Origin: Haliotis asinina | Taxonomy: Eukaryota; Mollusca; Gastropoda; Lepetellida; Haliotidae | Length of the DNA: 64,000 nt | Direction: 5' to 3' | NCBI RefSeq assembly: GCF_037392515.1 | Contig: NC_090287.1 | Span: 12,513,001 to 12,577,000 of the forward strand | In this document: positions 6,671 through 39,712 of the stretch, piece after piece | Layout: each line of letters opens with the position of its first letter | Position numbering within the stretch: the stretch's first letter is position 1 | The notes under the pieces: generated by a model | What the model was told of the DNA's origin: nothing | What the model saw: the letters and a program-made list of their open reading frames with translations, nothing else | Database searches by the model: none | Position numbers and translations under genes: made by a program

Positions 6671-7439
6671 ACTTTAATTCTAACCAAGTGAATAGAATAT
6701 TATAACGTGGCATACTACACTGGTTATATCCTTGCGGATGTTAGAGATAGGATGAGGCAAGATATGTATCTGAAACACATTTAATTTAATGCTATATAGA
6801 GCTTAACTGCGTTATGTGAGTAAGTTATGATTTAGAGTCATATCTTCATTATTTCAGCCATATCGTGACTAAAACTAGTTAAAAATTCATAATACAGACA
6901 ATATAAAATGTAAAACCCTGTCAATGAAGGACAAACCGCGTCGAGGGCCGCCTCATATTACTGTAGTTGGTTTTTCGTGACATGGCAGGCAAGCCATTGT
7001 AATATGTAAGAATATGCGATCCTAAATTTCTTCTGAATAGTATATATCATAAGGACGAAAGAGGACGTACGGTTATTACTCAAATTCAGTGTATAAGGTC
7101 GTGTAAATGTGAAAAATGTCTGCGCTGAAAACAAAATGGTAACACGACGTCGACTCTCGAAAGTTAAATGCAGTTTAGCATAAGTTCCCCTGCTGTTGTT
7201 TACAGTTTAAAAACCATTGCGGCTATCACAATTAGCAAAACAACTTAATTCCTTCAGTGAATGAATTTCTCGACTTTGCATGTGTCCCTAAAACTTAGGC
7301 TGTTTTGTCCAACGGCACAAAATCTGCACAGCCAGTCAACTTGCATAACTCTTGAATGGTCTTGTGCTACTCCAAATGTTCCTTTGAACACAGTTCCAGG
7401 TAGCGTTACGCCTATTAAAGCAACATACCAACAACAATA
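6671..7439. other. Stretch without a recognisable feature
   Basis: AT-rich sequence between the foldback element and the next minisatellite. The plus-strand frame at 7,261-7,494 runs into that minisatellite and has no domain signature. Confidence 0.4.
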
Positions 7440-8190
7440 CCTTGTGCATTGTAGCCATGTAAGGGACACTGGAATATACATTGTATCCATGTAGGGGACA
7501 CCGGGATATATGCATTGTGCCCATGTAGGGGATATTGGAATAAACATTGTATCCATTCATAGGACACCGGGATATATGCATTGTACCCATGTAGGGGACA
7601 TTGGAATATACATTGTACCCATCTAGGGGACACCAGGATATACACTGTATCCATGTAGGGGACACCAGGATATACATTGTATCCATGTAGGGGACACCGG
7701 GATATATGCATTGTACCTATGTAGGGAACATTGGAATATTCATTGTATCCATGTAGGGGACAACGGGATATATGCATTGTACCCATGTAAGGGACATTGC
7801 ATTATCCATTATACCCATGTAGGGGACACTGGAATATACATTGTATCCATGTGAGACACCGGGATATATGCATTGTATCCATGTAGGGGACACCGGGATA
7901 TATGCATTGTACCCATGTAGGGAACATTGGAAGATTCATTGTATCCATGTAGGGGACACCAGGATATACATTGTATCCATGTGAGACACCGGGATATATG
8001 CATTGTATCCATGTAGGGGACACCGGGATATATGCATTGTACCCATGTAGGGAACATTGGAAGATTCATTGTATCCATGTAGGGGACACCAGGATATACA
8101 TTATATCCATGCTGGGGACACCAGGATATATGCATTGTACCCATGTAGGGGACACCGGCCTATATACATTGTATCCATGTGGGAGACATA
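7440..8190. repeat. 32-34-bp minisatellite
   Basis: About 22 copies of CCATGTAGGGGACACCGGGA + TATATGCATTGTA, alternating with a variant GGGACATTGGAATATACATT. Long open frames on the minus strand (repeating GYN.Y..VPYM) are produced by the repeat and are not evidence of a gene. Confidence 0.9.
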
Positions 8191-8957: not shown

Positions 8958-8963
8958 GATAAG
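8958..8963. repeat. Target-site duplication GATAAG, left copy
   Basis: GATAAG directly precedes the left terminal repeat of the Polinton; the identical hexamer follows the right one at 23,150-23,155. Six-base duplications are the rule for Polinton integrases. Confidence 0.9.
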
Positions 8964-9407
8964 AGCAGTGTACAGCGTCACCCTGGTGGGATTTTCAAGA
9001 TGGCCGCACTTCCGGTCACGTGATCCCCATGGTGACGTCATTCGATTGTTCTAGGATGACGTCATCAGTTGGTGTGTACGGGTGTGACGTCATTCGATTG
9101 TTTTGTGATGACGTCATCCGTTGGTGTGGCGTGGTCCTTAGCAACGGGGGTGTGGCTAAACAACGGTGGTTTGTGCCCGATCTCGCGGGATCTCGCTAGA
9201 TGAAGCGTGTTTCAAGATGGCGGCGGCGGCAGACGGACGGCACGGCATGGCACGGGACAAGGGAGGGAAGGGGGAGAGTGGGGAGGGGGGAGGGGGAAGA
9301 GGACGACGGCAGCTCATAAAGAAAAAAAAAAGCCGGTTCGAGTGTTAAAAAGATTGTATGTCGAGTTTTCCTTTGGGGAGCGTTTGGGGTGGCCCTGAAA
9401 AGGGCCG
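8964..9407. repeat. Polinton left terminal inverted repeat
   Basis: Matches the reverse complement of 22,744-23,149. It is 444 bp long because it carries a tandem duplication of about 50 bp (9,031-9,130) that is single in the right copy. In order it shows CAAGATGGC (YY1-like, 8,997), ACTTCCGG (ETS, 9,008), TCACGTGA (E-box, 9,016), four TGACGTCA (9,033; 9,057; 9,085; 9,109), CTTAGCAAC/GCTAAACAAC (RFX half-site-like, near 9,137 and 9,155) and CAAGATGGCGGC (YY1, 9,213), then a G/A-rich tract. Its inner edge is a histone-type stem-loop. Confidence 0.95.
9391..9406 (-). terminator. Histone-type 3' stem-loop for the left-end gene
   Basis: Read on the minus strand this is GGCCCTTTTCAGGGCC: a 6-bp stem with a TTTC loop, which is the form of the metazoan replication-dependent histone 3' stem-loop. 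It is preceded by CCAAC and followed by ACCCC and then a purine-rich CCAAAGGAAAA that could serve as a histone downstream element. It lies about 130 nt beyond the stop of the minus-strand zinc-knuckle gene. Function is inferred from form only. Confidence 0.7.
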
Positions 9408-9535
9408 TTGGTATTGTTTGGGGTTGGTTTATGACTGGTCCACTGCTGCTGGAGACATCATCGTCCATGGGTTCCAAGATGCGTTGCATGAGAGTGTACA
9501 TGGTGTCCATGCGTTCTTGAACGAGGATGATCTTG

Positions 9536-9922
9536 TCATGGAGACCAGTCAGTATTCGACTGTTTACTCACTTTCTTCGGCGGTTCACTGGACTGGTTGG
9601 TGGGAGCCGAACGTTTCGAGGTCTTGTTAGGGCAGTTCATGCTCTTGTGCTCTTCATTGCCACAGTGACGGCAGGGATGTGGACAGTTGTAACTGCGATG
9701 ACCTTCGTTTTTACCACAGTTATAACACGTGTCGTTATCGTGCTTGTTGGTACTGCCGTTGTTGGTCTTCTTTGGGCATATGTAATGGCGATGCCCTTGA
9801 ACACCACACTCGGTACAGGTCACCATGGGGCAGTGCAGATAACTGTGGTCATCTGTTTCGCACAGGCGGCAACGAAAGGACACAGAGGAGGCGGTGGCAG
9901 CGACGGCGGGAGACGTCTGCAT
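9536..9922 (-). CDS. Four-zinc-knuckle protein, outward-facing left-end gene of the Polinton
   Basis: A 128-residue frame that looks whole. It has four CCHC zinc knuckles: CRLCETDDHSYLHC (about residues 18-31), CTECGVQGHRHYIC, CYNCGKNEGHRSYNC and CRHCGNEEHKSMNC, the third with a five-residue rather than four-residue gap. A serine/lysine tail with PPKKVSK could be a nuclear signal. Such knuckles usually bind single-stranded nucleic acid, as in CNBP or retroviral nucleocapsid. The start is the first ATG after a minus-strand TATATAAAC at 9,971-9,979 with a TGACGTCA just upstream. It is transcribed toward the left terminus and ends at the histone-type stem-loop. It is not a standard Polinton core gene; a role as an early nucleic-acid chaperone is inference. 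Confidence 0.75.
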   Translation of the reverse strand: MQTSPAVAATASSVSFRCRLCETDDHSYLHCPMVTCTECGVQGHRHYICPKKTNNGSTNKHDNDTCYNCGKNEGHRSYNCPHPCRHCGNEEHKSMNCPNKTSKRSAPTNQSSEPPKKVSKQSNTDWSP

Positions 9923-9970
9923 GCTTCAAGCTTCAGTCAGCAACTGATGAGAAAAGCTGGAAAACCTCGA

Positions 9971-10289
9971 GTTTATATAGAGTCGATGACGTCACGCTGG
10001 TGCGAACCGCCAATCGGCGTCACTGCCCTCGTGTGACGCGACGTCATAGGGGTGTGTGACGTCATGGGCCTGCCCCTCGGAAACAAAATCACTCCTCCAA
10101 CTCCTGGTGCACTCTGCCAACTCCTGGTGCACTCTACCAACTCATGGTGCACTCCACGAACTCATGGTGCACTCCACGAACTCATGGATGACTGACACTG
10201 ACTGACACAGGCCAACACTGCCAACACTGGCTCACACTGCTCAGCCTACGGTGACGTCATAGGGTGACGTCATAAACTGTCTATATAAA
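9971..10289. promoter_or_regulatory. Divergent promoter between zinc-knuckle and polymerase genes
   Basis: A minus-strand TATA box (TATATAAAC, 9,971-9,979) with TGACGTCA at 9,987-9,994 serves the left gene. A plus-strand TATA box (TATATAAA, 10,282-10,289) with TGACGTCA at 10,252 and 10,265 serves the polymerase. Between them are further CRE-like palindromes near 10,040-10,065 and a 20-bp tandem repeat. Confidence 0.65.
10099..10187. repeat. 20-bp tandem repeat in the divergent promoter
   Basis: About four and a half copies of AACTC(C/A)TGGTGCACTC.AC. GTGCAC is itself palindromic. The position between two promoters suggests an enhancer-like array, by inference. Confidence 0.75.
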
Positions 10290-10322
10290 GCTGGCTCCGC
10301 GTGGATCTTGTCAGTTCTCATC

Positions 10323-13300
10323 ATGCCGTCAACGACCACGAACAGCGATGAACTTGAAGCAGAAAAACAGGAAGAGGAGCCCGCGCCCTTCCAGTTGGAA
10401 TCGGCACCCAAAAGAATGCTCAAGAAGTTCCAGACAGCCACCCACCGGTTCAAGCTCCAGTTCAACGCAGCTTGGCTACAGTGTCTCCAACCCGAAGATT
10501 TATCGGTCGTTCTCCGAGAACAGCTCGACGCCGTTTTGTTAGAGCTGAGAGACCGCGTGAACGGCCATGATGGTGATTGGGTTGGGTTAAGTTTAGAACG
10601 CCCCGCCCTGGATTCCGACATCCGAATCCCGTTACGTTGCATGGACGAGCTCAAGGGACAGGACATTATGGCTCAAGTAGAAAAGTTCAACAAAGCAGCC
10701 GTGAGTTGAACATCGATGACAGCATGGACATTTTCTTGCTCCACGTTGACGATCCTGAACGTATGGGCGAGGGATACGGGCGACCCAGACACATTGTTGG
10801 TTTAAACACTTTCCTAGAAAAGAAACAATGCATCATTCAAATCAAGAATGAAAACGATCCACTCTGTTTTGCTTGTGCCATCGTGGTGGCCAGCCACCAT
10901 GTCCACAAACCGGATCCCGTGACGAAGGAATGGACCAAAGAATGGAAGCGTCTATGCGACCATCGGAGCCCAGTTCAACTGAAAGCAGCCAAGGCCTTAT
11001 TTCGACAACTGAAGATCCCCGAAGGGCCGTGTACAGAGCATGCCACGTGGGAGACGTTTAGTCAACCTTTGGCTCCTTATTATCAAGTCAAAATCTACTC
11101 ACAGGATACCATGAATCGTCTCCTGAATAAGAGCGAGGTGCCACAACCGACCAAGATCCTACACTTGTATCACCACCACCAACATTATGACGTCATCACG
11201 TCCATGCCAGCTTTCACAGGTGGTGTCTATTACTGCGAAACCTGTGACCAAGGATACCATCACCCACAAAATCATCGCTGCACTCGGGAATTTTGTTGTT
11301 CCTGGTGTCAATGTCCTGGATTCTGTGGCGACGTGGACAACGAAGGGCTCTCCTGCCTTCAATGGATGGTTTCGGAACCAATACTGTTTTCAACGTCATG
11401 CCAAGCATCCCAGCACTTGCTCCACCATTCACACTTGTCGTCACTGCTATGCCAGAGTGAACGTGAGAAAAATCCAGGGGATGGCCCAAGACAAGTGTGG
11501 CACGAATCGTGATTGCAAAATCTGTAAAGAGCCCTTGGAACCAAACCATCAGTGCTACATGCCCGTCATCGAATCAACCAAACACGATGAAGAAGAAGAA
11601 GAAGATGGTGAAAACAGCGATGAAGATGAACAACAGCAACAGTGTCAGTTTATCTTTTATGACTTTGAATGTACACAAGATCAAGGTGCACATGTTCCCA
11701 ACTTGTGTGTTGTCCATCTGGGATGCGGTAAAGGTATTTCCGAGGCCTCAAGTGACCTTTGCGAAAAGTCCATGCCGCAAAGAAGGAGAAGGACCTAGCC
11801 GCATGAAAGTGTTTCGAGGGACGACCACCTTGAAGCACATGGGCGACTGGCTGCTCAGTCTGGCGGAAAAGAAAACCACAAAGAAACGGAAGGCACCATC
11901 ATCAACAAACCGCCCACCCAAGAAACGCTCCAAAACACCCTCCCCAGATGATGTGGAACAAAATGAATACGATGACGAAGAAGAAGAAAACGTTGCCATT
12001 GACGATGATGACGTCATCGTCATTGCACACAACTACCGAGGGTACGATGGGCACCTGCTCCAGCAATACTTTCATCGTCATCTCATGAAAGCACCCCAGA
12101 TCGTCCAACGGGGGAATCTCATCTTACAAATGAATGTGGAGCACCTCGTCTTCAAGGATTCCCTCAATTATCTCACAATGGCTCTCAAGCAGTTTCCAAA
12201 AACGTTTGGATTGGCGGAACTCAAGAAAGGGTACTTCCCTCACTTTTTCAACACCGAAGCTCATGAAGGCTATGTGGGTCCTTATCCTCCCGTGTCCACC
12301 TATGATCCTGACAGCATCAATCATGTGGTGACCCAGTGGGAATGCGATTTTCGGAAAGAACAAAAAGACAACGCAGATATGAGAGCATTCCTGGATTCCT
12401 GGATTCCACGGACGCTTTCTTTGGAGGGCGCACCAACGCTACCAAATTGTACTATGAAGCCAAGGAAGAGGAAGACATCAAATACGTGGATGTGTGTTTG
12501 CTGTACCCTTACATCTGCAAATATGGTACTTACCCCGTGGCACATCCCACGATCAAGGATCACCCTCCCGTGTCTGACTTGTTTGAGCTACACGGTCTCA
12601 TCCAGTGCCGGGTCTTGCCACCCACCGACCTCTACCATCCTGTTCTTCCTTACCGCGTCCAGGGAAAGTTGTTATTTCCTCTGTGTCGTACTTGTTCTGA
12701 ACAAGAGTTTGTTGGTTCCTGTCCCCACGGTGAAGAAGACCGAGCATGGGTGGGTACCTACGTCAGCAAGGAGCTTCAGTATGCCGTTCGAGACTGCGGT
12801 TATCAAGTGCTTCATATCTTTGAGGCTTGGCACTAAGACAGTCTCACCAAGTACGACCCTGACACGCAAGAGGGAGGATTGTTTGCCAAGTATGTGAACA
12901 ATTTCTTCAAGATCAAGCAAGAGGCCAGCGGATACCCTGAAGGCTGTACAGACCCAGACGCCTACATCAGAGAGATTCAGCGAAAAGAGGGCGTCACCTT
13001 GGATCACGCTCACATCTGCAAAAACCCAGAGCTGTGGGCCCTAGCTAAAGCTTGCCTGAACAACCACTGGGGTCAACGTTTGGTCAACGTGTCAGGTTTG
13101 ACAAGGCAGAGTACATCAGTTCCCCAGAGAGGTACTTTGCCCTTCTCCGAGACGAACGGTGCCTAGTGAAGGACATCCATGTTGTCAATGAGGACCTCAT
13201 ACGCGTCACCTACGAACATCAACCAGAATTTCACAACCCACATCCTGCTCACAATGATGTCATTGCTGCCTGGGTGACAGCACAAGCCCGTCTCAAACTC

Positions 13301-13450
13301 TACTCCTACCTGAAACCCTTGGATCGACGCGTCCTCTATTTTGATATGGACAGCAAAGTGTACCGCATGGTGTACACCAAGCAACACATGATTTACGATT
13401 CCGAAGGCATGCCCGTGGAAACACTGCGTCATGGCTATAAGGGCGAGTGA
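10323..13450 (+). pseudogene. pPolB: Polinton protein-primed DNA polymerase B region
   Basis: Broken remains of the family B, protein-primed DNA polymerase that copies Polintons. The N-terminal part shows the family segment with GLSLERPALDSDIRIP and, further on, YHHHQHYDVITSMPAFTGG, typical of Polinton and adintovirus polymerases. A cysteine/histidine-rich stretch follows (YCETCDQGYHH). FYDFECTQD is the exonuclease I motif. DVCLLYPYICKYG corresponds to polymerase motif A, ACLNNHWGQR to motif B and YFDMDSKVY to motif C. Acidic, low-complexity inserts lie between exonuclease and polymerase parts. The start is the first ATG after the TATA box at 10,282. The region is broken in several places. 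It is expressed, in the ancestral layout, divergently from the zinc-knuckle gene. Confidence 0.92.
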
Positions 13451-13829
13451 CTATTCCTGTGGACTCAAGGTGGTGACTGTTGTTCCTGATCATTCATGAA
13501 CAAGAAAACTGCTAATACTGTATATATGGTTTGTTTGTTTATCAAGAGTAATATAACACCATGTTATGTATTGATATTCATGTGTGTGTGTAGTGTCGTT
13601 TGTCTTCAGGGTTAGACGTGGTGAAGTCCATGGTCACCCGTTTATGTTAGGCACAGACCTGGTGGAGTCCATGGTCGCACACCGCCCTAGCACCTCATTG
13701 GTCAAACCCTGTTGTCACGTGTCATAAAGTCACGTGTCATAAAGACCTCCCCAACTCAACTCATTCAGACTTTAGTCGTCAGAGAGAACACGCATCTCTT
13801 GGTTTAAGTCTGTTGCACCCCCAAGCCAA
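13451..13829. promoter_or_regulatory. Spacer with E-box repeats upstream of the CARD gene
   Basis: No gene. A direct repeat of GTCACGTGTCATAAAG (13,714-13,745) gives two CACGTG E-boxes each next to a CATAAAG TATA-like box, about 100 bp before the CARD reading frame. GTGGTGAAGTCCATGGTCAC and GGTGGAGTCCATGGTCGCAC form a diverged pair near 13,620-13,680. Confidence 0.45.
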
Positions 13830-13834
13830 AAAAA

Positions 13835-14185
13835 GCAAAAAATCGCTTCAGTCTCGTAGTAGCCATCAAAGATGTCGGAGCCGTGGTCGACAAATTGGTG
13901 GAGTTTAAACTCCTTACCATCTTCATGGAGGTACGACAAACCTCCTACAATCGGATCAGAGCTTTATTAGATGTCCTCCCCCGGCGAGGACCCCAAGCTT
14001 ACACCCTCTTTTGCAAAGCTTTGAAGGAATGTGGCGAGACAGAAGCCATGAGACTGTTGTTAGTAGAGACTCCCAGAGAGACTCCCAGAGAAAGGCTCCC
14101 ACAGAGGCTCCACTCACAGACAACTGACAGAGACGCCCGAGTGACGTCATCCAAGGTCATGACATCATCGCATGTGTGTATATAA
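13835..14185 (+). CDS. CARD (caspase-recruitment) domain gene carried by the Polinton
   Basis: The reading frame contains a death-fold CARD. From about 13,850 it runs through VVDKLVEFKLLT, SYNRIRALLDVLPRRGPQAY and FCKALKECGETEAMRLLL. The LLxxLPxRGPQAxxxFCxAL block is the hallmark of CARDs and most resembles that of caspase-2 and CRADD. A basic/proline tail (VETPRETPRERLPQRL) follows. The domain is about 70 residues, near full CARD length, and there is no caspase domain: it would be a CARD-only protein. In host cells such proteins block or nucleate caspase-activating assemblies, so an anti-death role for the element is plausible but inferred. The true start is uncertain: the N-terminal helices are in frame, but the first in-frame ATG lies inside the domain. 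Confidence 0.7.
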   Translation, partial: AKNRFSLVVAIKDVGAVVDKLVEFKLLTIFMEVRQTSYNRIRALLDVLPRRGPQAYTLFCKALKECGETEAMRLLLVETPRETPRERLPQRLHSQTTDRDARVTSSKVMTSSHVCI

Positions 14186-14187
14186 AG
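14179..14187 (+). promoter_or_regulatory. TATA box
   Basis: TATATAAAG, about 45 bp before the small open frame at 14,231 and preceded by TGACGTCA near 14,142. A second box (CTATAAAAA, 14,381-14,389) serves the next gene. Confidence 0.6.
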
Positions 14188-14230
14188 AAGAGTTTGTGTG
14201 TGAGACTTGTCATTCATCATCATCATCGTC

Positions 14231-14356
14231 ATGTTGTTCACGTTGTTGTTTGTGATCGCCACGTACCTGGAAGAAAGACACTTCTTAGAACAGTTCAGAG
14301 AAGCGGTGCAAGAGGCGGTGCAGAAGCAGTCACAGGCTCGTGACGTCAATGCGTGA
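14231..14356 (+). CDS. Small hydrophobic-then-helical open frame in the Polinton
   Basis: A 41-codon frame, MLFTLLFVIATYLEERHFLE and then a Q/E/A-rich helix ending in DVNA. The first dozen residues could be a membrane segment or signal anchor and the rest an amphipathic helix. It has its own TATA box at 14,179. I do not recognise it; it may be a small membrane protein or chance. Confidence 0.4.
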   Translation: MLFTLLFVIATYLEERHFLEQFREAVQEAVQKQSQARDVNA

Positions 14357-14434
14357 CTTCACAGCACGTGCAGCTGTGGGCTATAAAAACTCAGGATCCA
14401 TCGAGACACCTTCATTTGTACCAGTTCAGTCAGC

Positions 14435-15278
14435 ATGTCAACATCTCCACGCCAGCACAGTAAGTATGTTTTTCACTTACTTAACTCAACAAAGTACGTG
14501 ACCGCACAGAGCATTTGTAGGCCCAAGGGCATCATGCGTGCACAATGCAATTGCCAAAACGTTGATTTTAATTTTTTTTTTCCCATTCCATGTTACAGGC
14601 GCTACAGATTGTCCACTGCTCCCTTCTTCTTCTTCTTCCAACATGGACCACATCATGAGGGCTGAATACATCAAATCCCCTTCGAGGTACTTTGCTTTTC
14701 TCCAGGATGAACATTATCATGTGAAGGACGTACTCATCATCAATGAGTCCCTCATCTGTGTCACTTATACCGTTCGTAAGTCGGAATCCTCCAAAGAGAC
14801 AGAAGTCAAGACACCCAAGGCCGTCCCTCCTAAATGAGTGGTGATACCACCACCACCACCTTCCAAGACGACGACCCCTGTCACGATGAGGAGGAAGGAA
14901 GTGGTGGTGGTCAGCAAGAAGAAGAAAACACCCACCAAGAAGACACTGGCTCCTCCTAAGGACACCCCTGCCACGGCTCCTCCAAAACAAAAGAAACAGA
15001 AGAAGGCGGAGGAGGAGAAGGTTCCCGTCAAGGCATCCCCTAAGAAGGTGTCCAAGAGTACCTCTCGCAAGGGCACCTCTCCCAAGAGTGTCTCTGTCAA
15101 GGGTACCCCTCCCAAGGGTACCCCTACCACGATCTTAAAGAAGAAGGAGGAGGAAGCCCCTACCATCACCACCACCACCAAGGCAGCAGACCAACAGAGT
15201 GTCAAGAAACAGATGACTACTGATGACCTGTGGAACAACTATCAGCAAACTGCTGATGTTAGCCCCGGCAAGTCTTAA
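14435..15278 (+). pseudogene. Polymerase-derived segment plus lysine/SPKK-rich H1-like basic gene
   Basis: The promoter is CTATAAAAA at 14,381. Near the start is a candidate spliceosomal intron (GTAAGT at 14,460, pyrimidine tract and TTACAG ending at 14,598). Shortly after it, EYIKSPSRYFAFLQDE...VKDVLIINESLICVTY closely matches the polymerase segment between motifs B and C (about 13,095-13,215), so this is a duplicated piece of pPolB. The rest is very rich in lysine, proline, threonine and serine, with SPKK/TPKK-like units (TPTKK, ASPKK, TSPKS, TPPKGTP), as in histone H1 tails and viral core proteins. It could condense DNA. The region looks broken. Its position corresponds to no standard core gene. 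Confidence 0.6.
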
Positions 15279-15299
15279 GTCTCCTCTCCTGCTAGCCCC

Positions 15300-15740
15300 G
15301 ACGCAACACCCCACGTTGAGTTGCCTTCTGATCTTCAAGACTTGTATGATCTACTACCGATGCTACCACCAGTGCCTGCACCCCACTGGTTGATCATTGA
15401 TGATTTGCTGGGCGACCATAGCAAAGAGGAAGAGGCAGAAGTGTTGCGATGGTGTACCAAGAAAAGTAATCATCGCAACACGTCCATGTTGTGCCTGACA
15501 CAAAACCTCTTTGCCTCGTCGCCTCATCATCGCACCATTAGTTTAAATGCCCACTACCTGGTGTTGTTTAAAAACCCGAGGGATGACTCTCAAATGGATC
15601 ACTTGGCTCAACAAATCTTTCCAGGAGAGACGGCTTTCCTTCGAGAAGCTTACGAGGATGCCACTTTGGCTCCTTATTCCTGGCCTGCTCCTACCTTCTG
15701 GCCTGCTCTTCCCTTCAGTCGACCCTGACCTGCCATGGGA
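15300..15740 (+). pseudogene. Polinton packaging ATPase (FtsK/HerA, A32-like) remains
   Basis: HWLIIDDLLGDHSKEEEAE fits the Walker B strand, and NHRNTSMLCLTQNLF, TISLNAHYLVLFKNPRD and FLREAYEDAT are the conserved C-terminal motifs of the Polinton/adintovirus genome-packaging ATPase, a relative of poxvirus A32. In intact relatives this enzyme drives DNA into capsids. The region is broken remains. It lies at the usual place upstream of the small virion genes. Confidence 0.85.
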
Positions 15741-16116
15741 GACAGACGAAAACGTGCTGTTGTTGCCACAGGCTTGTTTAAACCTGCTCGTAACCAAGAT
15801 TACCAATCCACGCCTGTCTGTGGATGAACGTCTGAGTTACACCCAACTCGTCGCCAAAGGAAACCTCAAAGGAAACCTCAAAGGAAACCTCAAACGAAAC
15901 CTCAAAGGAAACCTCAGGGGCGTCACTCCAGGAAACAGACCAAGAAGGGCAACGAGAAAACAGCCCCAGGGGCAGCCTTGACCCGCATGGTGTTGCGAAG
16001 CCAGAAGAACAAGAAGACAACAGCATTACCCCCACTTCCTCCACCAACGCTAAAATAGAGGTATCCCATCCTTATCCTCGTCAGTTCCATGGTAGCAGCA
16101 GTAGCAGCAGGAACAT
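15741..16116 (+). repeat. 12-bp repeat tract and spacer after the ATPase
   Basis: GGAAACCTCAAA is repeated about five times at 15,858-15,917, encoding repeating GNLK in one frame. The stretch then leads to the next small virion gene. No separate domain is recognised. Confidence 0.5.
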
Positions 16117-16449
16117 CATGTTAGCCCGTTTGAAACGTCACAAAGAAGCGCTCTGTCATGTGTGTAGCCCTACAGCAACACCAGCCATTTGAAACATGCT
16201 CCGTCTGAACTGATTCAAGCCATCTGCGAATGTGTGGTGAATTTGTATGGAGGTAACATTCCCATGACAGCACAGCAACGACATCGTTTACAAAAGCATG
16301 GACCACTCATGCATACGTTGATGAAAAAGAAAGTGTCTGTGGCTGAGAAATGCATACTGCTACAACAGAAAGGCAGGGGATTGGGTCTCTTGTCTGCCTT
16401 AGCATCAGTGGTGGGTCCTTTGGTGCCTCGTCTGTTGGGGCGATCATAA
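16117..16449 (+). pseudogene. Polinton small virion protein, pX-like
   Basis: The segment LIQAICECVVNLYGGNIPMT...RLQKHGPLMHTLMKKKVSV is a family signature that I know from many Polinton and adintovirus genomes, where it lies just after the ATPase. The C terminus is a glycine-rich hydrophobic tail, GRGLGLLSALASVVGPLVPR, likely membrane-active. A basic LKRHKEAL segment begins the region near 16,120. The region looks largely preserved but broken near its start. Its role in the virion is inferred from adenovirus core and membrane-lytic proteins. Confidence 0.65.
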
Positions 16450-16491
16450 ATACAGGGATCCTCTCGGATTGGGGTTAGTTGCCTCTGCACC

Positions 16492-17524
16492 ATGATGAAG
16501 CATGCACGGAAGATGGTGATGGTCCCAGAAGAGGTATGGCAAAGTCTGCAAGACAAAAAACGACAACGTCATTTGCTCAAGTCTAACCTGTTGGAACAGA
16601 AACGGTTACACACGCTTCACGATATGGATACCCTCGTTCGTGATGACACGATTCCCTTCAGGGACAGAGAGCAGCAGTATAACACCTTGTTGCAACAGAT
16701 GTTGGCGTTTCAAGACAAAGCAGCAACAGCAGCAACAGCAGCAACAAGAGCACGACGCACTAGCAACACACAACCATTGAACGGAATCCCTGCCAACACC
16801 ACCAGAGAGGAAGGAACAACACCCATTGGGAAAGGAGGGACTCCCCCCATCTTAGCTGCTACCCGGTTTACTTACCGAGTCACACTCTTGCCTGTGTAGA
16901 GGTCGCCTAGAAGTCTTAGGGTCATCCTAAGCATGGAGAGCGCGAAGCCGGTTCCAGAGTCACTGACTCATGATGTTCTTTGATTCTTCTGTTTCAGAGC
17001 AATCGTCCTCCTCCTCCGACCTCATTCTGAATGAAGTGCTGCAAACGATTCCTAAAACGCTACAAGGCAAGGCCAAACAGCTGATGGCACGGATTCAAGC
17101 CCATCCTGAGTTGGGTTGGAAAGAAAATGGCCAATTCGTGGTGGAAGGGGAACCCATGCCTGGGACTCACATGGTGGATCTTATCAATGATCTGGTGCGA
17201 CAATGGACCAAAGCAGATACTCCATGGGGTTGGAACGTTCTGGCTCAGTATCTCGCTTCCAGCAATGTCCCTCATGAACTGATTGGCAACCCTCTCCGTT
17301 GGTCCTGGATGATGAAAACGAAAGGGGCCACGCAGCAACAGCAACAGCACGCGCCTCCCACACCCGTGAAACGCCAGGCAGAAGGGACCTCCTTGTTTTT
17401 GACACCACCCCAATCTAACGTGGAATCCAAGAAGAAAAAGAAGAAGAAAGTAGCTGCAACGCCGCTCAAGGCTGAGACTCCCTCTTCCCCTCTGAACCGA
17501 GTTCATCAATGGATTCACTTTTAA
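16492..17524 (+). pseudogene. Polinton conserved protein of unknown function
   Basis: The left part begins MMKHARKMVMVPEEVWQSL with a long helical, glutamine-rich stretch. The right part holds NEVLQTIPKTLQGKAKQLMA...HPELGWKENGQFVVEG...MVDLINDLVRQW, then a lysine run and a short C-terminal WIHF. Both parts match what I recall of one conserved gene between pX and integrase in animal Polintons; the function is not known. Glutamine and lysine runs are low complexity. The region is broken or split; a stretch just before 16,997 resembles a splice acceptor (TTCTGTTTCAG). Confidence 0.55.
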
Positions 17525-17566
17525 TCATAAAAGTGAGCAGATGGTGACATCAACAGCAGTGTTAGC

Positions 17567-18440
17567 ATGAGACGTCCAAAGAGAAACAACAACAACAGCA
17601 GCAGCAAGTCATCCTCCTCCTCCTCCTCCTCCTCCTCTTTGTCACCTGCCTGGGCACGATGGCTTCACCATACCTATTACGATCCCAAACATCCGTGGCG
17701 GAGGGTGGCGTGGTTTGTGGCAACCCATGAAGTCCAAGACCGGCACCACGTTGATCGAAGCCTTTCAACAAATCCTGAAACAAGCTGAAGGATGTGTGCC
17801 CTCCATTTTACAGCCCGACAAAGGTGGAACGTTTTCAAAGAACGTTGAAAAACCGTAGGTGGCATTATTTCACCCAACATGGAACACGTCACTACCTCAA
17901 GGCTTTACCACAGCTGATGCATGCCTACAATCATCGGCTTCATCGTACGATCGGACAACGACCCGTGGATGTGCATCCCAACAACCCTTACGACAAAATT
18001 CGGATGTTGGATCACATGGAACAACAACGCCAGAAGCAACGGCAGAAGCAATGTCAGCAGAAGCACCGTCAACACCAGCGTTCTCTCTTGTTACCTGGGA
18101 CCCGTGTTCGCTTGAACAAGACCAAAGGGACCTTTGACAAAGGGTATCTTCCCAACTGCACCACCGAACTGTTCACCGTGGATTGCGTCGTGAAAGGACG
18201 TGTTCCTCCTGTCTACCGAGTGACAGATGATCACGGAGAAGTGCTCCAAGGCACATTTAACCCGATGAATTACAACCCATTCAGAAAACAGATGACGTGT
18301 ACAAAGTCAATCAGGTCCTGAAACGGCAGCGGCGTCAAAAGAAGGAAGAAGTGTTGGTGAGGTGGTCGGGCTACCCGGCCAGCTTCGATTCATGGATCCC
18401 TGAGTGTCGTACCCCTTCAACTGGTTTGTGCTTCACATGA
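17567..18440 (+). pseudogene. INT: Polinton retroviral-type integrase with chromodomain
   Basis: After a serine run, WARWLHHTYYDPKHPW is the typical N-terminal region. IEAFQQIL...LQPDKGGTF resembles the catalytic core around its second acidic motif, and RFQRTLKNRRWHYFTQHG...LMHAYNHRLHRTIG the C-terminal part of the core. A glutamine-rich stretch and an SH3-like part (PGTRVRLNKTKGTFDKGY) follow. The end holds a chromodomain: VYKVNQVLKRQ...EVLVRWSGYPASFDSWIPE. Intact relatives insert the element and make 6-bp duplications, matching GATAAG here; the chromodomain probably guides insertion toward modified histones. Broken in several places. Confidence 0.9.
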
Positions 18441-19246
18441 ACTTCGAACGCTTGACCAGGATTTACAGTTCAGGAGCACTGGATGTGACCATGATCGAAG
18501 AGAAATCATCCGAGCCGTCAGCGTAAAGGTGATCATTCCAGAAGGCATGTATTCCGCTCGGTGCTTCAGCGTGCGTGTCTGTGCACCATTGTTGGAAAAG
18601 CATACAGCTAATGTGTACCAGACGGATGCCAGAGGTCGTTACACCGTCACTGTAAACTACCCCAAAGAAGAACTCCAATTTGAAATGCGCGGCCCAACGC
18701 ACGTCAACTTTTATGCTCCCACACCGAAAGGCAGGGTCATCTTGGGCTCTTCCTGCAAAACAGCCACCCAACCGGACCACGATGCCATCAGGTCTGCCTA
18801 CATCACTCAACTGGTGTTGCCTGCTTCCTTGGTATGCATGCTAGGATTTATGCAGCTCCCCATGATCGACGAAGCAGAGGAAATAAGTCAAGTCTACACT
18901 TACCCTGTCCAAGTGAGTGTACGTCCTCTTGTTGTAGGGGAACAGGAAGCCGACCATCTGGCTGGCTTTGATATAGTGTACATCTACTCGGATGTGGTGG
19001 AAGATCAAATCGTCGGGGATACAATGGCTCCCTTACTGATGCATGTTCACGTATCTCGTCAGATGATGGAAGACAGCGTCGTGATGAAAACTCCCCAGCA
19101 TGTACGCTACATGGGATTGCGCCAGGGAACCACTGATGCCATTTAAATCTATGTAATGGACGACATAGGACGTCCCGTGCCATTCCAGAGTGGGAAGACC
19201 ATCGTGATACCCCTTTTCCGTCCCCGTCGTCTGGGCACGTACTGAC
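18437..19246 (+). pseudogene. Polinton minor capsid (penton, single jelly-roll) region
   Basis: The family segments are VKVIIPEGMYSA, YTVTVNYPKEELQF, VGDTMAPLLMHVHVSRQM and, near the end, DDIGRPVPFQSGKTIVIPLF. These are the signature of the Polinton/adintovirus penton, a single jelly-roll protein at capsid vertices. The length of about 260 codons is normal. ATG at 18,437 directly follows the integrase. It is nearly preserved, with few breaks. Confidence 0.85.
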
Positions 19247-19490
19247 ATGGCAGGGCATCAGTGTATCCAACACCGGTGCAGCACCGGCTTGGGTGGCCAG
19301 CAACAACAACAAGGACGAGGTTTAGACACATACCAAGGTCGCATTCATCAACGAGGGAGAGGTCTCGGAAACATCTTGGGAAGCTTGGGCCATTCAGCCC
19401 TCTCCATTCTGAAGACGGTGGGAAGAAGAAGAAGAAACAACAAAAAAGTCGTCATGGAACTTTGTGTCATTGAACTTTGTCATTGGACTT
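19244..19490 (+). pseudogene. pVI-like small virion protein region
   Basis: A short glycine/arginine-rich frame with DTYQGRIHQRGRGLGNILGS and a basic tail (GRRRRNNKK). The (Y)xGxxxQRGxGLG segment between penton and major capsid genes is typical for Polinton minor virion proteins compared with adenovirus pVI; RGRGLG resembles an adenain cleavage site. No catalytic residues are expected. Whether it is whole is unclear. Confidence 0.55.
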
Positions 19491-19604
19491 GACATAAAAG
19501 GATCATTCCCATGGAAAAGTGTCAGTTCAACACCAGACACGAACCTGTCAAGACCTGTTGGACGTACCTGTTGGGCAGACCTGTTGGGCAGACCTGCCAA
19601 GATA

Positions 19605-20897
19605 ATGCGTCAGGATGCTTGTGAATGTGCCAAGTCGCAGTTGGATCTCTTTTCGGTTCCCCCGTGTTGACATCAGTTCAAGAGGGTCAGTGGATTCGAT
19701 ACAGTCCTCTTGCACTCCCTTCGGTGGTGGGTCCCCCCCCAGTTTAACATTGCTAACATCGATTTGAATCAGTGTTACCTCCGCATCTGCCTCAAAATCA
19801 AGAATACCGATGGCACGGATGCCACTCATGATGGGGATGACCGACGCGTCGTGGGGATGAACAACATGATGCATTCCCTCTTTCGAGAAGTGCGTGTGCA
19901 AGTGGGACACAACCAGTTGGAAATCACCCCCTCCATGGGAACCTATCCCTACCGAGCCTATTTGGAAACGTTAGTGAGTTATGGGAAGGCAGCCAAAGGG
20001 ACGCATCTCCAGTGCCCAGGATGGTACACCAATGAATCTGGGAAAATGGATGACTTCAATGCCGTCGCTCAGAATGTCAATGCAGGACTCGTCGCACGAC
20101 GGCGGGTCATTCTACCCACACGAGAAGTGGAACTGACAGGCCGTCTCCACTGTGACCTGTTTCTCCAAGACCGGTATCTGGTGGATGGTGTCCCCATGAA
20201 ACTAGAACTGATTTGGAGCCCGAGTGATTTCTACTTGAAGAGTGCTGGAGATGTGGAATGTCGATTTGAACTGACCAAAGCCGAGTCAACATCGATCCTG
20301 CCATCAGGGAACAGCACATGAAACACATGTCACCAGGAGTCATGGCCAAATATCCTTTGACCCGAGTCCAAGTCACGGCTCATGACATTCCAGGAGGAGG
20401 GCGCGATTTCCACAAAGATCAACTGGTGGGAGGACAACTGCCCAAACGAGTGGTGTTGGGACTGGTGGACAACGATGCTTTTGCCAGCAGCAAGGAAATG
20501 AACCCCTTCCATTTCAAGCACAACAACGTGACCAGTCTCAAACTGAAACTCAAAGGCCAGTAAGTGCATGGCACAGAAATCAAAAGTGACTTTCAGAACA
20601 ACAGTGGTTCGCTCAAACAGTTGTACATGAACCTGTTTTGCAACACGGGACATCTGTGGCAAGAACATCCCTGCAACCTCACCCTAGACGAGTTCAGGAA
20701 CGGATTCACACAGTGGGTGGTGGATTTGACGGCAGATCTGTGAGCAGACGAAGGTCATAACTACCCAAGACACGGGAAAGTTGGGACTCGAACTCCAGTT
20801 TGCAGAACCCTTACCTCGTCCGGTCACACTCGTCTGCTACGAGGAATACGAAAGCGTACTGGAAATTGATTGGTTCCGCAACGATCTGATGGTCTAA
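19605..20897 (+). pseudogene. MCP: Polinton major capsid protein (double jelly-roll) region
   Basis: MRQDACECAKSQLDLFSVPP is the usual MCP N terminus. Conserved parts follow: FNIANIDLNQCYLRICLKI, MHSLFREVRVQVGHNQLE, YPYRAYLETLVSYGKAAK, LHCDLFLQDRYLVDGVPMKL and LGLVDNDAFASSKEMNPFHF, with YEEYESVLEIDWFRND close to the end. This is the hexon-like double jelly-roll capsid protein. The region of about 1.3 kb fits the usual length of about 430 residues. It is a broken fossil with several breaks. Confidence 0.9.
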
Positions 20898-20899
20898 GG

Positions 20900-21341
20900 A
20901 TGGATGGATTGATGACCAAACATGTGAATGCCTATGTCCAGCAGGACCCCCTGCTGCGACCCCTTTACCAAGGGACCTTTGCCCGAGCTCACTTTGCCAT
21001 CACCGTGCTAAGTGAACGACACGGACCTTATCCTAAAACCTACATCGTCAACACGGACCCCAGTCATCTCCTGGGTGTGCGTGTATCATCCAGCACCGGG
21101 TGTCTTTGACTACTTTGACAGTTATGGCTTTGACTTTCGGAATATCATCACCTACAGTGGATAGCTCACACAGCGGTGGAATGTTCAATCAGTTCAACCC
21201 TGGTTCACTGCCTCATGTGCAATGTATTGTTTGTGTGTCCTGGCTCATCGTGCCCACGGATGGACTTTCGACGACGTGATGGAACAGTTTGATCCATATG
21301 CTACCCTCGGCAATGAAGAACGTGTGAAACGCTGGTTTTAA
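20900..21341 (+). pseudogene. PRO: Polinton adenain-type cysteine protease region
   Basis: Recognisable pieces are LYQGTFARAHFAI, TYIVNTDPSHLLGVRV and FDYFDSYGFDF, the last being the conserved FxDSxG block of adenovirus-type maturation proteases. The region lies directly after the major capsid gene, its usual place. It is one of the most degraded parts of the element. Confidence 0.75.
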
Positions 21342-21528
21342 CTCAGACGCCTGCCAGACAACAACAACAACGACGTCCAGAATCCGCAGCCCTGTCAAAG
21401 GGCACAACCTTATCGTTCTGATGTTATGATGTTCTCTTCATGTTCGAGTTCATACCGTTTGTAAACAAAAGATCAGGGACGTCCCTAATCCTGACTCTTT
21501 TGTCACCATGGTTCTTGTTAGCAGGGAA

Positions 21529-21534
21529 AATAAA
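21529..21534 (+). terminator. Polyadenylation signal for the plus-strand core genes
   Basis: AATAAA about 190 nt after the protease region, followed by an A-rich run and TGTCTTGTT (GU-rich on RNA). This is a conventional poly(A) signal, in contrast to the histone-type ends of the flanking small genes. Confidence 0.6.
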
Positions 21535-21604
21535 ACGTTGAAAAAAACCCAAAACACATGTCTTGTTATGATGGTATGAAAGCATTCTTTAGTGAGATGT
21601 GGGT

Positions 21605-21620
21605 GGTCCTGAAAAGGACC
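21605..21620 (-). terminator. Histone-type 3' stem-loop for the minus-strand right-end gene
   Basis: Minus-strand GGTCCTTTTCAGGACC, a perfect 6-bp stem with TTTC loop. It is preceded by an A-run ending AAAAAC and followed by ACCCACA, which matches histone mRNA ends, where cleavage follows ACCCA. CTAAAGAATG downstream could pair with U7. It lies about 22 nt past the stop codon of the gene at 21,642. Confidence 0.75.
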
Positions 21621-21641
21621 GTTTTTTTATCGTTGTGGTGA

Positions 21642-21923
21642 TCACAACGACCACAGGGGCGGCATCGTGCATTGACATGGGGGAATGCCTAGCTTGGTTT
21701 TCTTGACGGGACACTTGCTTCCATGGGTAGCATGTAAGTGTCTTTGAGTCCCGTACCACAGTACACGCAATAGAATGCCATTATAGGCATTGGTACCGTT
21801 GGCGTACACAGGTAAACACCCATGGCCCTGGGTGCATTGCCATGCAGGCAGTGATGGTGGTGGCGGTGGCGATGGCGAGGATGGTTCCAACGAAATCAAC
21901 TCTAAATCCCAGTTTTCTTCCAT
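21642..21923 (-). CDS. Small cysteine-rich Polinton gene, right end, minus strand
   Basis: The start is the ATG at 21,923 (MEENWDLELISLE), just downstream of a minus-strand TATATAGG at 21,953-21,960; a longer upstream start would precede the TATA box. A serine/proline run (PSSPSPPPPPSLP) is followed by WQCTQGHGCLPVYANGTN and scattered Cys/His suggesting zinc binding. It may be a distant relative of the zinc-ribbon-like gene at 22,536. Whether it is whole is unclear. No known family recognised. Confidence 0.45.
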   Translation of the reverse strand: MEENWDLELISLEPSSPSPPPPPSLPAWQCTQGHGCLPVYANGTNAYNGILLRVLWYGTQRHLHATHGSKCPVKKTKLGIPPCQCTMPPLWSL

Positions 21924-21989
21924 GGTTGTCCGCTCCCGTCCTCCTCCTCGTCCTATATAGCAGAACTCAGCCAATCACAGGACAACACC

Positions 21990-22125
21990 TCAAGATCATG
22001 ACGTCACAACCTCACGCGCCATGACAACGTCACGACCTCACGCGCCATGATGACGTCACGACCTCACGCGCCATGATGACGTCACGACCTCCCGCGCAAG
22101 GACCACGTCATCGATGTGACGTCGT
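21990..22125. promoter_or_regulatory. 26-bp tandem array of CRE/ATF sites in a divergent promoter
   Basis: About four and a half copies of CCTCACGCGCCATGATGACG + TCACGA, each centred on TGACGTCA or a variant (for example 21,999-22,006), between the minus-strand TATA at 21,953 and the plus-strand TATATAAA at 22,132. Palindromic ATF/CREB sites close to the genome end recall the adenovirus E4 promoter. Confidence 0.75.
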
Positions 22126-22131
22126 CGAGGA

Positions 22132-22139
22132 TATATAAA
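22132..22139 (+). promoter_or_regulatory. TATA box of the right-end plus-strand gene
   Basis: TATATAAA about 55 bp before ATG 22,194, which decides that ATG over an earlier in-frame codon. Confidence 0.65.
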
Positions 22140-22193
22140 CGTTGCCATCACCCTCACATATCGCCGACTCCGTGTGTGACACGAAAAGTGAAA

Positions 22194-22511
22194 ATGGCCC
22201 GACCAACACCTTACCGAAGAAACTGTGGACGAAAACAATGTCTCCGGTGTAGCCCGACCCTCCTCCACATGAAGAAGGAAGAAGAAGAAGAGAAAGAAGG
22301 GGAAACGCCCCTCATTCCCATTCCCACCACCACCACCACCACCATACCCTCACCACAACTAGAACCCATCATCAAGATTGAAGACGACGATGACGACGAC
22401 GATGGGACGACGGGAGCTGGCACGACAGCGCGACCACCACCAACAACCACCGCGAGAACAGGCACTGCACCCCAGAAAACAGCAAACGCGGAAATGGCGA
22501 CATTACAATAA
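22194..22511 (+). CDS. Acidic/threonine-rich small Polinton protein with N-terminal Cys cluster
   Basis: A 105-residue frame that looks whole. The basic N terminus has CGRKQCLRC (possible half zinc site), followed by an E/K run, a proline/threonine run, and IIKIE followed by seven aspartates. IKIE fits the sumoylation consensus and the acidic run is what enhances it. The rest is threonine/alanine low complexity. Unrecognised; a nuclear early regulator is a guess from composition and position beside the zinc-ribbon-like gene 25 bp downstream. Confidence 0.5.
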   Translation: MARPTPYRRNCGRKQCLRCSPTLLHMKKEEEEEKEGETPLIPIPTTTTTTIPSPQLEPIIKIEDDDDDDDGTTGAGTTARPPPTTTARTGTAPQKTANAEMATLQ

Positions 22512-22535
22512 TTAGCAGACCGATGGCAATTCATC

Positions 22536-22715
22536 ATGTGCCCTACCTGCCTGAAAGCCCATCCATCCGACCGATTCGATCTCGTCCCCACAGCCAAGTT
22601 TTATGTATGCCTCTATTGTGGTGAGGGTGTCCCCAAAGGAACCCAATCCATCCACGATGACATTTGTGTCGGCAAATATGTTTTCCGAGGACTCAAACTC
22701 GTCTGCCAATGTTGA
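22536..22715 (+). CDS. Zinc-ribbon-like small Polinton protein
   Basis: A 59-codon frame with MCPTCLKAHP, FYVCLYCGEGVP, a histidine and cysteine in IHDDICVG and a CQC end. Four CxxC or C/H pairs fit one or two zinc sites. It looks whole; it ends 30 nt before a histone-type stem-loop at the inner edge of the right terminal repeat. It may be a downstream exon or partner of the preceding acidic gene, since no TATA box separates them. Confidence 0.5.
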   Translation: MCPTCLKAHPSDRFDLVPTAKFYVCLYCGEGVPKGTQSIHDDICVGKYVFRGLKLVCQC

Positions 22716-22743
22716 CTTTGAGGCACCTCACCTCCACACCTCC

Positions 22744-23149
22744 CGGCCCTTTTCAGGCCACCCCAAACGCTCCCCAAAGGAAAACTCGACGTACATGCTT
22801 TTTAACACCCGAACCAGCTTTCTTCATGAGCTGCCGTCGTCCTCTTCCCCTTCCATCCCTTCCCCCTCCCCCCCCTTTCCCTCCCTCGTCCCGTGCCGTG
22901 CCGTGCCGTCCGTCTGACGCCGCCGCCATCTTGAAACACGCTTCCTCTCGCGAGATCACGCGAGATCACGCGAGATCGCGCACAAACCACCGTTGCTTAG
23001 CAATACCCCCGTTGCTAAGGACCACGTCACACCCCGTACACACCAACTGACGACGTCATCCTAGAAAATCGAATGACGTCACCATGGGGTCACGTGACCG
23101 GAAGTGCCGCCATCTTGAAAATCCCGCCAGGGTGACGCTGTACACTACT
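22744..23149. repeat. Polinton right terminal inverted repeat
   Basis: 406 bp, complementary to 8,964-9,407. It includes a histone-type stem-loop in slightly altered form (22,745-22,759, GGCCCTTTTCAGGCC), a run of CGCGAGATC units with a perfect TCTCGCGAGA (near 22,946), GTTGCTTAGCAAT and GTTGCTAAGG (RFX-like), TGACGTCA, TCACGTGA, CCGGAAGT and GCCATCTTG. The terminus reads GTGTACACTACT-like on the plus strand. Confidence 0.95.
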
Positions 23150-23155
23150 GATAAG
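23150..23155. repeat. Target-site duplication GATAAG, right copy
   Basis: Identical to 8,958-8,963. Confidence 0.9.
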
Positions 23156-39110: not shown

Positions 39111-39448
39111 GTGCGTTTCAATAGCCTTTCATTTATTTGGACGATTGCAGGGGCAGGGGTTGAGCTTTACAAAGTGACAGTATTGTGTGGCATTCATTTG
39201 CTCTGTTTTTCTTTCCTGAAAGACAACCACAAAACCACTGACGTCACGGAATGTGGCAAGTGCATGCATGTTGGATACATGTCTCTAATCTCTGAATTTA
39301 AATCCTTAGGTTTGATAAATTTAGATTTTTAATTCCTGTATGTTCAGTTTTCTTATGTGCTTAGTATAGCTGGAATATTACCGAGTAAAACTAAACTCAC
39401 TCATTCACTTTAACAAAGGCAATGCCTAGAAACGTATGTCCGAATGGT

Positions 39449-39712
39449 GAATGAGTGAGTTTAGTTTTACGCCGCACTCAGCAATATTCCAGATACATGG
39501 CGGCGGTCTGTAAATAATCGAGTTTGGACCAGATAATCCAGTGATAAACAGCATGAGCATCGATCTCCGCAACTGGGAACCGATGACATGTGTTAACCAA
39601 ATGAACGAACCTGACCGTCGGATCCCGTTAGTCGCCTAAGCATGGTCGCCTTTTATGGCAAGCATGGGTTGCTGATGTGCTCTTCTACCCCGGACCTTCA
39701 AGGGTCATGCTC
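39449..39712 (+). repeat. Haliotis-type short repeat, family A (near full length)
   Basis: GAGTGAGTTTAGTTTTACGC...CAGCAATATTCCAG...AATAATCGAGT...AACTGGGAACCGATGACATG...GTTAGTCGCC...GGCAAGCATGGGTTGC, ending TACCCCGGACCTTCAAGGG. A fragment of the opposite orientation lies just upstream (39,365-39,410). Confidence 0.9.

Follow-up and report, generated by a model that had tools for sequence, protein, structure and literature searches.

Candidate histone-type 3' ends in the small terminal genes of an abalone Polinton clade

The stretch of DNA analyzed here, called the window, is the 64-kb segment C8:12513001-12577000 of the 1.14-Gb genome of the abalone Haliotis asinina, and all relatives compared with it are loci of that one genome. 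It holds a degenerate copy of a Polinton/Maverick element whose three small terminal genes, named A, B and C here, are each followed by a hairpin resembling the one that ends replication-dependent histone mRNAs. The original prediction took these stem-loops to be histone-type 3' end signals, a reading now backed by their recurrence at near-fixed spacing, a covarying pair in the stem, a purine element like that of H1 genes and missing poly(A) signals. On these grounds it is most likely that the three genes use 3' ends of the kind processed by SLBP and the U7 small nuclear ribonucleoprotein (snRNP).

A degenerate Polinton and the stem-loops behind its terminal genes

The stem-loops of genes A and B are exact hairpins with a 6-bp stem and a TTTC loop, and that of gene C is the copy of the former in the right terminal inverted repeat (TIR), minus one base (Table 1). 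With up to 3 mismatches allowed, the pattern GGNCCTTTTCAGGNCCACC has 3 matches in the 64 kb against 0.06 expected, and none of 100 shuffled sequences reaches 3. When the window was searched with the RF00032 model, whose curated cut-off is 34 bits, the gene B signal (21580-21625, minus strand) scored above it (37.7 bits, E = 2e-07) and the gene A signal (9366-9411, minus strand) below it (32.1 bits, E = 2.4e-05); the right-TIR copy, with its lost base, was not reported. The arm coordinates and the sequence uphold the sense orientation claimed for the stem-loops and the placement of two of them at the inner TIR edges. These two are copies of each other and not independent; the gene B stem-loop lies outside the TIRs.

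The element is bounded by inverted arms (8964-9027/23086-23149, 9123-9201/22955-23033, 9179-9327/22819-22967 and 9326-9412/22738-22824) and flanked on both sides by GATAAG, a 6-bp target-site duplication (8958-8963 and 23150-23155). One piece matches the family B polymerase (PolB) model PF03175 (28.6 bits; cut-off 25.8), the PolB region of this copy being spread over several frames. The capsid-candidate protein has 441 relatives, the best of them named 'F54H12.2-like' in Haliotis, a group which we take to be Polinton capsids; its Pfam match to Capsid_N (11.9 bits) is under the cut-off, and the window copy is 84-91% identical in pieces. The capsid protein of the related copy L013 shares 99% identity with a protein of Haliotis asinina. 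An adenain-like protease match (13.2 bits) is likewise under the cut-off, and an integrase-like C-end with a chromodomain-like stretch was recognized by eye at 17779-18440, with no fitting Pfam match. The polymerase piece, the capsid candidate with its many relatives, the TIRs and the target-site duplication liken the element to Polintons/Mavericks and adintoviruses, and the split PolB, a stop that interrupts gene C and the shortened gene A mark this copy as degenerate.

Some details of the original prediction needed revision. The description of all three as small zinc-binding genes stands for gene A, with its zf-CCHC domain, but genes B and C are Cys-rich only, with no Pfam match over the cut-off. 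The related locus L076 has a weaker gene A match to zf-CCHC (18.6 bits, under the cut-off of 20.8). A Pfam search of the window and L076 proteins found no histone domain in genes A-C. Used as protein queries, gene C and a frame from the repeat locus L056 had no match at E 0.001. As to the distance between stop and stem-loop, given as 20-130 nucleotides (nt), the short gaps hold, but the 130 nt behind the left gene result from the shortened frame of gene A in the window copy.

Table 1. Features of the Polinton copy, in window positions
Feature	Position	Strand	Basis and remarks
Degenerate Polinton/Maverick copy with TIRs	8964..23149	.	Inverted arms, sequence, PolB piece PF03175
Downstream-element-like purine core AAAGGAAAACTC of gene A	9363..9374	-	16 nt after stem; as H1-like in 1/1000 shuffles
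Histone-type stem-loop of gene A, left TIR inner edge	9391..9406	-	Exact pattern match; RF00032 32.1 bits
Gene A, zinc-knuckle protein, frame shortened here	9536..9922	-	zf-CCHC 22.9 bits; longer in 8 relatives, e.g. L040, L076, L078
Sole plus-strand AATAAA of the element, past protease end of core block	21529..21534	+	Sequence scan
Downstream purine core AAAGAATGCTTT of gene B	21579..21590	-	14 nt after stem; conserved between copies
Histone-type stem-loop of gene B, outside TIRs	21605..21620	-	Above the RF00032 cut-off (37.7 bits)
Gene B, small Cys-rich protein	21642..21923	-	93 amino acids here, mostly 105 in relatives; stop 21 nt before stem
Divergent B/C promoter	21924..22193	.	TATA boxes both sides, TGACGTCA palindromes, GGCGCG repeats; window copy only
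Gene C, first part, stopped in window copy	22194..22511	+	Frame reading
Gene C, Cys-rich C-terminal part, separate frame here	22536..22715	+	Frame reading
Decayed stem-loop of gene C, right TIR inner edge	22745..22759	+	2 mismatches to pattern; intact in relatives
Downstream purine core AAAGGAAAACTC, TIR copy, gene C	22776..22787	+	Sequence

Recurrence, spacing and constraint of the signal

Across the genome, a first look for RF00032 gave 157,806 candidates, of which the best 75 were scored. Among these 75 listed matches, 62 fall in one array on contig C6 and 13 in related Polinton copies. In the C6 array, all 5 units read carry the hairpin; two were translated, both of them as H1, and the single unit tested matches Linker_histone at 102.5 bits. 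The 13 Polinton matches score 34.9-41 bits, in copies that are ~87-93% identical to that of the window on the capsid side and ~75-79% at the right end. All of these copies have both the gene B and the gene C hairpin. An exact search with the pattern GGNCCTTTTCAGGNCC gave 368 matches genome-wide against 0 for the reversed control; 100 of the 368 were listed, a list complete for contigs C1-C5 (89 hairpins). The first 30 places (L035-L064 in genomic order), sorted by hand, comprise 16 Polintons, 9 MULE-type loci, 3 other repeats with the cassette of stem-loop and downstream element, and 2 without a downstream element; L063 was counted as a Polinton solely through a gene-A-like frame. Matches at L050, L052, L074 and L075 (two) lack a downstream element and were taken as chance.

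On C1-C5, 20 of the 22 capsid loci of the clade (≥66% identity; loci matched in several pieces counted once, and the list a lower bound) have a hairpin within 20 kb, mostly ~0.8 and 1.9 kb beyond the point where the capsid match ends on its 3' side; several loci also have one 13-16 kb off on the opposite side. A sequence test had been set in advance, asking for enrichment that goes beyond the inverted-repeat copies; applied inside the abalone genome only, it did not refute the prediction. One relative, at C8:12669915, lies 137 kb from the window copy, and its capsid matches are interrupted at the same points as those of the window copy, with near-equal scores; the pair looks like a local duplication.

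The spacing between stop and stem was read at 59 distinct Polinton hairpins, a set that does not include the decayed hairpin in the right TIR of the window copy. A conserved gene end precedes 41 of them, and the gap is 20-25 nt in 39 of these 41: 20-24 nt in 16/17 cases for gene B (exception L077, 44 nt), 20-22 nt in 16/16 for gene C (at L006 and L041 as short frames only) and 22-25 nt in 7/8 for gene A (exception L030, 35 nt). In several relatives gene C is a single longer frame of 156-196 amino acids that ends 20-22 nt before the stem. This regularity bears on the idea of a hairpin that acts as DNA within the TIR, for instance as a site for transposase or terminal protein, with an accidental likeness to histone ends, as the position of two of the three hairpins at the inner TIR edge might suggest. 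We regard this as extremely improbable, given the gene B hairpin outside the TIR, the sense orientation and short stop distance of the conserved-end frames, the downstream element after most hairpins and the same kind of cassette in MULE elements and host H1 genes.

Constraint is visible in the stem itself. For an alignment, 34 hairpin ends were hand-chosen from 59 distinct 64-nt stretches, with chance matches and near-duplicates dropped. Standard pairing holds in all 204 pair cells of these rows, 26 of which have the other stem letters fixed by the search pattern, so that the one covarying pair is the main informative one. It reads C-G in 17 rows, U-A in 14 and U-G in 3, with 14 both-side changes. 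Its covariation score was reached by 0/500 shuffles; counted as pairs that change on both sides, the alignment has 1, which is not above shuffles (309/500). Within the aligned stretch, the gene B ends of L011 and L079 differ solely by a compensated C-G/U-A swap.

Downstream of the stem lies a purine-rich element, as in replication-dependent histone genes. One regular expression places the start of its core 12-16 nt past the stem in 25 of the 37 distinct flanks; in H1 it starts at 13. The mouse purine core AAAGAG pairs with U7 according to the consulted part of PMC7026596. Conservation of the core exceeds that of the sequence right beside it for gene B (0.87 vs 0.60), for genes A/C (0.69 vs 0.31-0.33) and in the MULE set (0.87 vs 0.45-0.47); the farther flanks of the gene B set reach 0.82-0.84. 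When 8 flanks were compared with the H1 element, no more than 2/1000 shuffles equalled the likeness seen for each of 7 of them, including 6 of 7 from mobile elements.

Poly(A) signals are scarce behind the same hairpins. No A(A/T)TAAA occurs in the 352-400 nt after 56 of the 59 distinct Polinton hairpins (it does at 376 nt in L038, 265 nt in L064 and 316 nt in L080), nor after the hairpin in any of 5 H1 units; among the 5 chance pattern matches, 1 has it. The original prediction contrasted these ends with core genes ending at AATAAA. This was borne out for one end only, the protease end at 21529, since the element has one AATAAA per strand, the minus-strand one at 13968. In related copies a protease-end signal follows the stop by 64 nt at both L013 and L014 and by 193 nt at L077. 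In the window, the convergent 3' ends of the core block and gene B are packed into 21529-21620.

Conservation of this kind speaks to a further explanation, in which the element picked up a histone 3' end of its host by accident and has since carried it as a neutral passenger. The TIR stretch 9361-9411 is indeed 80% identical to host H1 3' ends over 51 nt. Nevertheless, a passenger is very unlikely to have kept its hairpin across divergent subfamilies, with a compensated change in the stem, a downstream element conserved above its nearest flanks, and no poly(A) signals.

Several observations, besides the pattern-fixed stem letters mentioned above, weigh against histone-type ends in this clade. 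The clade loci C3:21618825 and C3:102114 have no stem-loop within 20 kb. No frame with a conserved end precedes 18 of the 59 Polinton hairpins; these include broken or shortened genes (for example, A of the window, C of L036, L079 and L081, and B of L001 and L015), the divergent loci L037, L038, L042, L063 and L080, as well as L034, L054, L072 and both hairpins of L012. A purine core at +12 to +16 is missing in 12 of the 37 distinct flanks, where the expression finds none or finds it elsewhere, and the gene B element of the window is weakly H1-like, with 84/1000 shuffles as good. The B/C promoter, examined in the window copy only, has 0 E2F-type sites. A search with RF00066 for U7 snRNA gave no match at E 0.001; its control was silent too, which makes the result uninformative.

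As a feature of Polintons, the signal is both narrower and wider than had been proposed: it holds for one clade, but 0 of 9 loci of a distant lineage (capsid 30-32% identity) on C1-C5 have a hairpin within 20 kb, and MULE elements and a non-histone gene array carry it as well. For a second stem type, GGNTCTTTTCAGANCC, the genome gave 69 matches and the reversed pattern 2. All 69 lie outside C1-C7 and so away from the 9 distant-lineage loci; only the GGNCCTTTTCAGGNCC and GGNTCTTTTCAGANCC stem types were sought genome-wide. The distant lineage (capsid 30-32% identical to P0001; for example, C6:13924715, C2:77979381 and C13:30777048) has at least 35 matches, none with an internal stop and many with near-equal scores, and for these two reasons it was perhaps recently active.

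The signal outside Polintons

The MULE-type loci were recognized through L061, which contains a piece of MULE transposase (PF10551, 31.8 bits; cut-off 27.6) and has L039, L049 and others as nucleotide relatives. The same stem-loop cassette lies close to where the transposase frame ends at L039, L049, L051, L055, L057 and L059-L062, and at L057 and L061 the last frame stops 23 nt before the hairpin. Unlike the Polinton hairpins, those of the MULE-type loci do have a poly(A) signal behind them: together with their kin they show A(A/T)TAAA 34-68 nt on in 10/12 cases, with L048 at 319 nt and none at L058 (11/12 within 400 nt). Two 3' ends are thus possible for these loci, one at the stem-loop and one at A(A/T)TAAA. 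This combination of stem-loop, downstream element and poly(A) signal recalls an H2A.X gene with dual 3' end processing, described in the consulted part of PMC7807067; here the gene is a transposase gene and the dual ends are predicted from sequence.

Three other repeats, L048, L056 and L058, carry the cassette. L058 shares with the MULE loci just ~51-59 nt surrounding the cassette, at 94-98% identity; L048 and L056 share somewhat more, and L056 and L058 are alike downstream. It is as if the cassette had moved, or been held, on its own in these repeats.

The signal also occurs in a tandem array at C11:17161837-17256443, where 60 of the 69 hairpins of the GGNTC type recur, here as GGCTCTTTTCAGAGCC, in units of mostly ~1.65 kb. 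The one unit read, L083, has a 110-amino-acid non-histone frame whose stop is separated from the hairpin by 2 nt, with ACAAAGGAAACTTGA coming after; this frame has no Pfam match over the cut-off and no good PDB match. The array gene could belong either to the host or to a mobile element. Because the MULE loci and this non-histone array carry the stem-loop, the signal seems to have been freed from histones in the abalone host. We are evenly divided on the broader proposal that the histone 3' end offers a general route into the replication-coupled, poly(A)-free class of mRNAs, one adopted by a Polinton clade, by MULE elements and by at least one non-histone multicopy array, and one that would couple mobile-element expression to host DNA synthesis.

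Elsewhere in the window, a minisatellite-like tandem stretch with frames of repeated MDTMYIPVSPTW-like sequence lies left of the element at 7254-8144, and at 39385-39470 there is a likeness to mir-7445, on both strands and below the cut-off. Searches of IMG/VR for relatives gave no match with the PolB piece, the major capsid protein (MCP) or the MCP alignment, and 1 weak locus only with the protease. Five stem-loop pattern matches in IMG/VR lacked, by eye, a downstream purine element and were taken as chance.

Host processing and the timing of expression

The 3' ends of genes A-C resemble those of replication-dependent histone mRNAs (RF00032 plus a U7-paired element) in stem, TTTC loop, flanks, short stop distance, purine core and lack of a nearby poly(A) signal. 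They differ in that the genes encode zinc- or Cys-rich Polinton proteins and that the 3' end is known here from sequence alone. We are fairly confident that genes A-C of this one clade end in histone-type processing signals, likely cleaved by host SLBP and U7, probably with expression in S phase.

From the signal, its constraint and spacing and the missing poly(A) signals, we infer the following course of events. A 6-bp stem-loop with a TTTC loop stands ~20-25 nt past the stop, usually followed 12-16 nt on by a purine element of the U7-pairing type. Host SLBP and U7 snRNP would cut the transcripts of genes A-C right past the hairpin, yielding poly(A)-free mRNAs, whereas the rightward core block (capsid, protease) would end at AATAAA instead. 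The element would thereby have two transcript classes, the AATAAA-ended core block and the histone-like-ended divergent B/C pair with leftward gene A. In studied animals, SLBP and histone mRNAs are limited to S phase. Because of this limitation, the small proteins would probably be produced during host genome replication, in dividing or embryonic cells, which may be when a self-replicating DNA element has most to gain.

The same processing could serve a different end. Possibly, though we think it rather unlikely, the histone 3' end is functional but serves as a space-saving way of ending genes without poly(A), one that fits SLBP-rich germline or early embryos, rather than as a cell-cycle timer. 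The packing of the convergent core and gene B 3' ends would fit such a use, as would the same signal in the tandem non-histone array and in MULE elements and the lack of E2F sites in the window-copy promoter. Stem-loop mRNAs of studied animals are, however, largely S-phase transcripts that decay at its end (compare the consulted part of PMC12775136), which counts against this use.

Unlike described Polintons and adintoviruses, this clade appears to carry a histone-type 3' end: in the open-licence literature searched, part of it judged by title, we found no description of a histone stem-loop in a Polinton, adintovirus or other transposon. Histone-like proteins of related viruses are mentioned in PMC11071296, in the consulted part of which the term 'stem-loop' is absent, and the consulted parts of PMC12775136 and PMC6303110 present histone mRNAs as unique with respect to their 3' ends. 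If mobile elements do use this signal, some of their transcripts would escape poly(A)-selected RNA data, SLBP and U7 would become candidate host factors of transposons, and the timing of Polinton gene expression would gain a testable handle.

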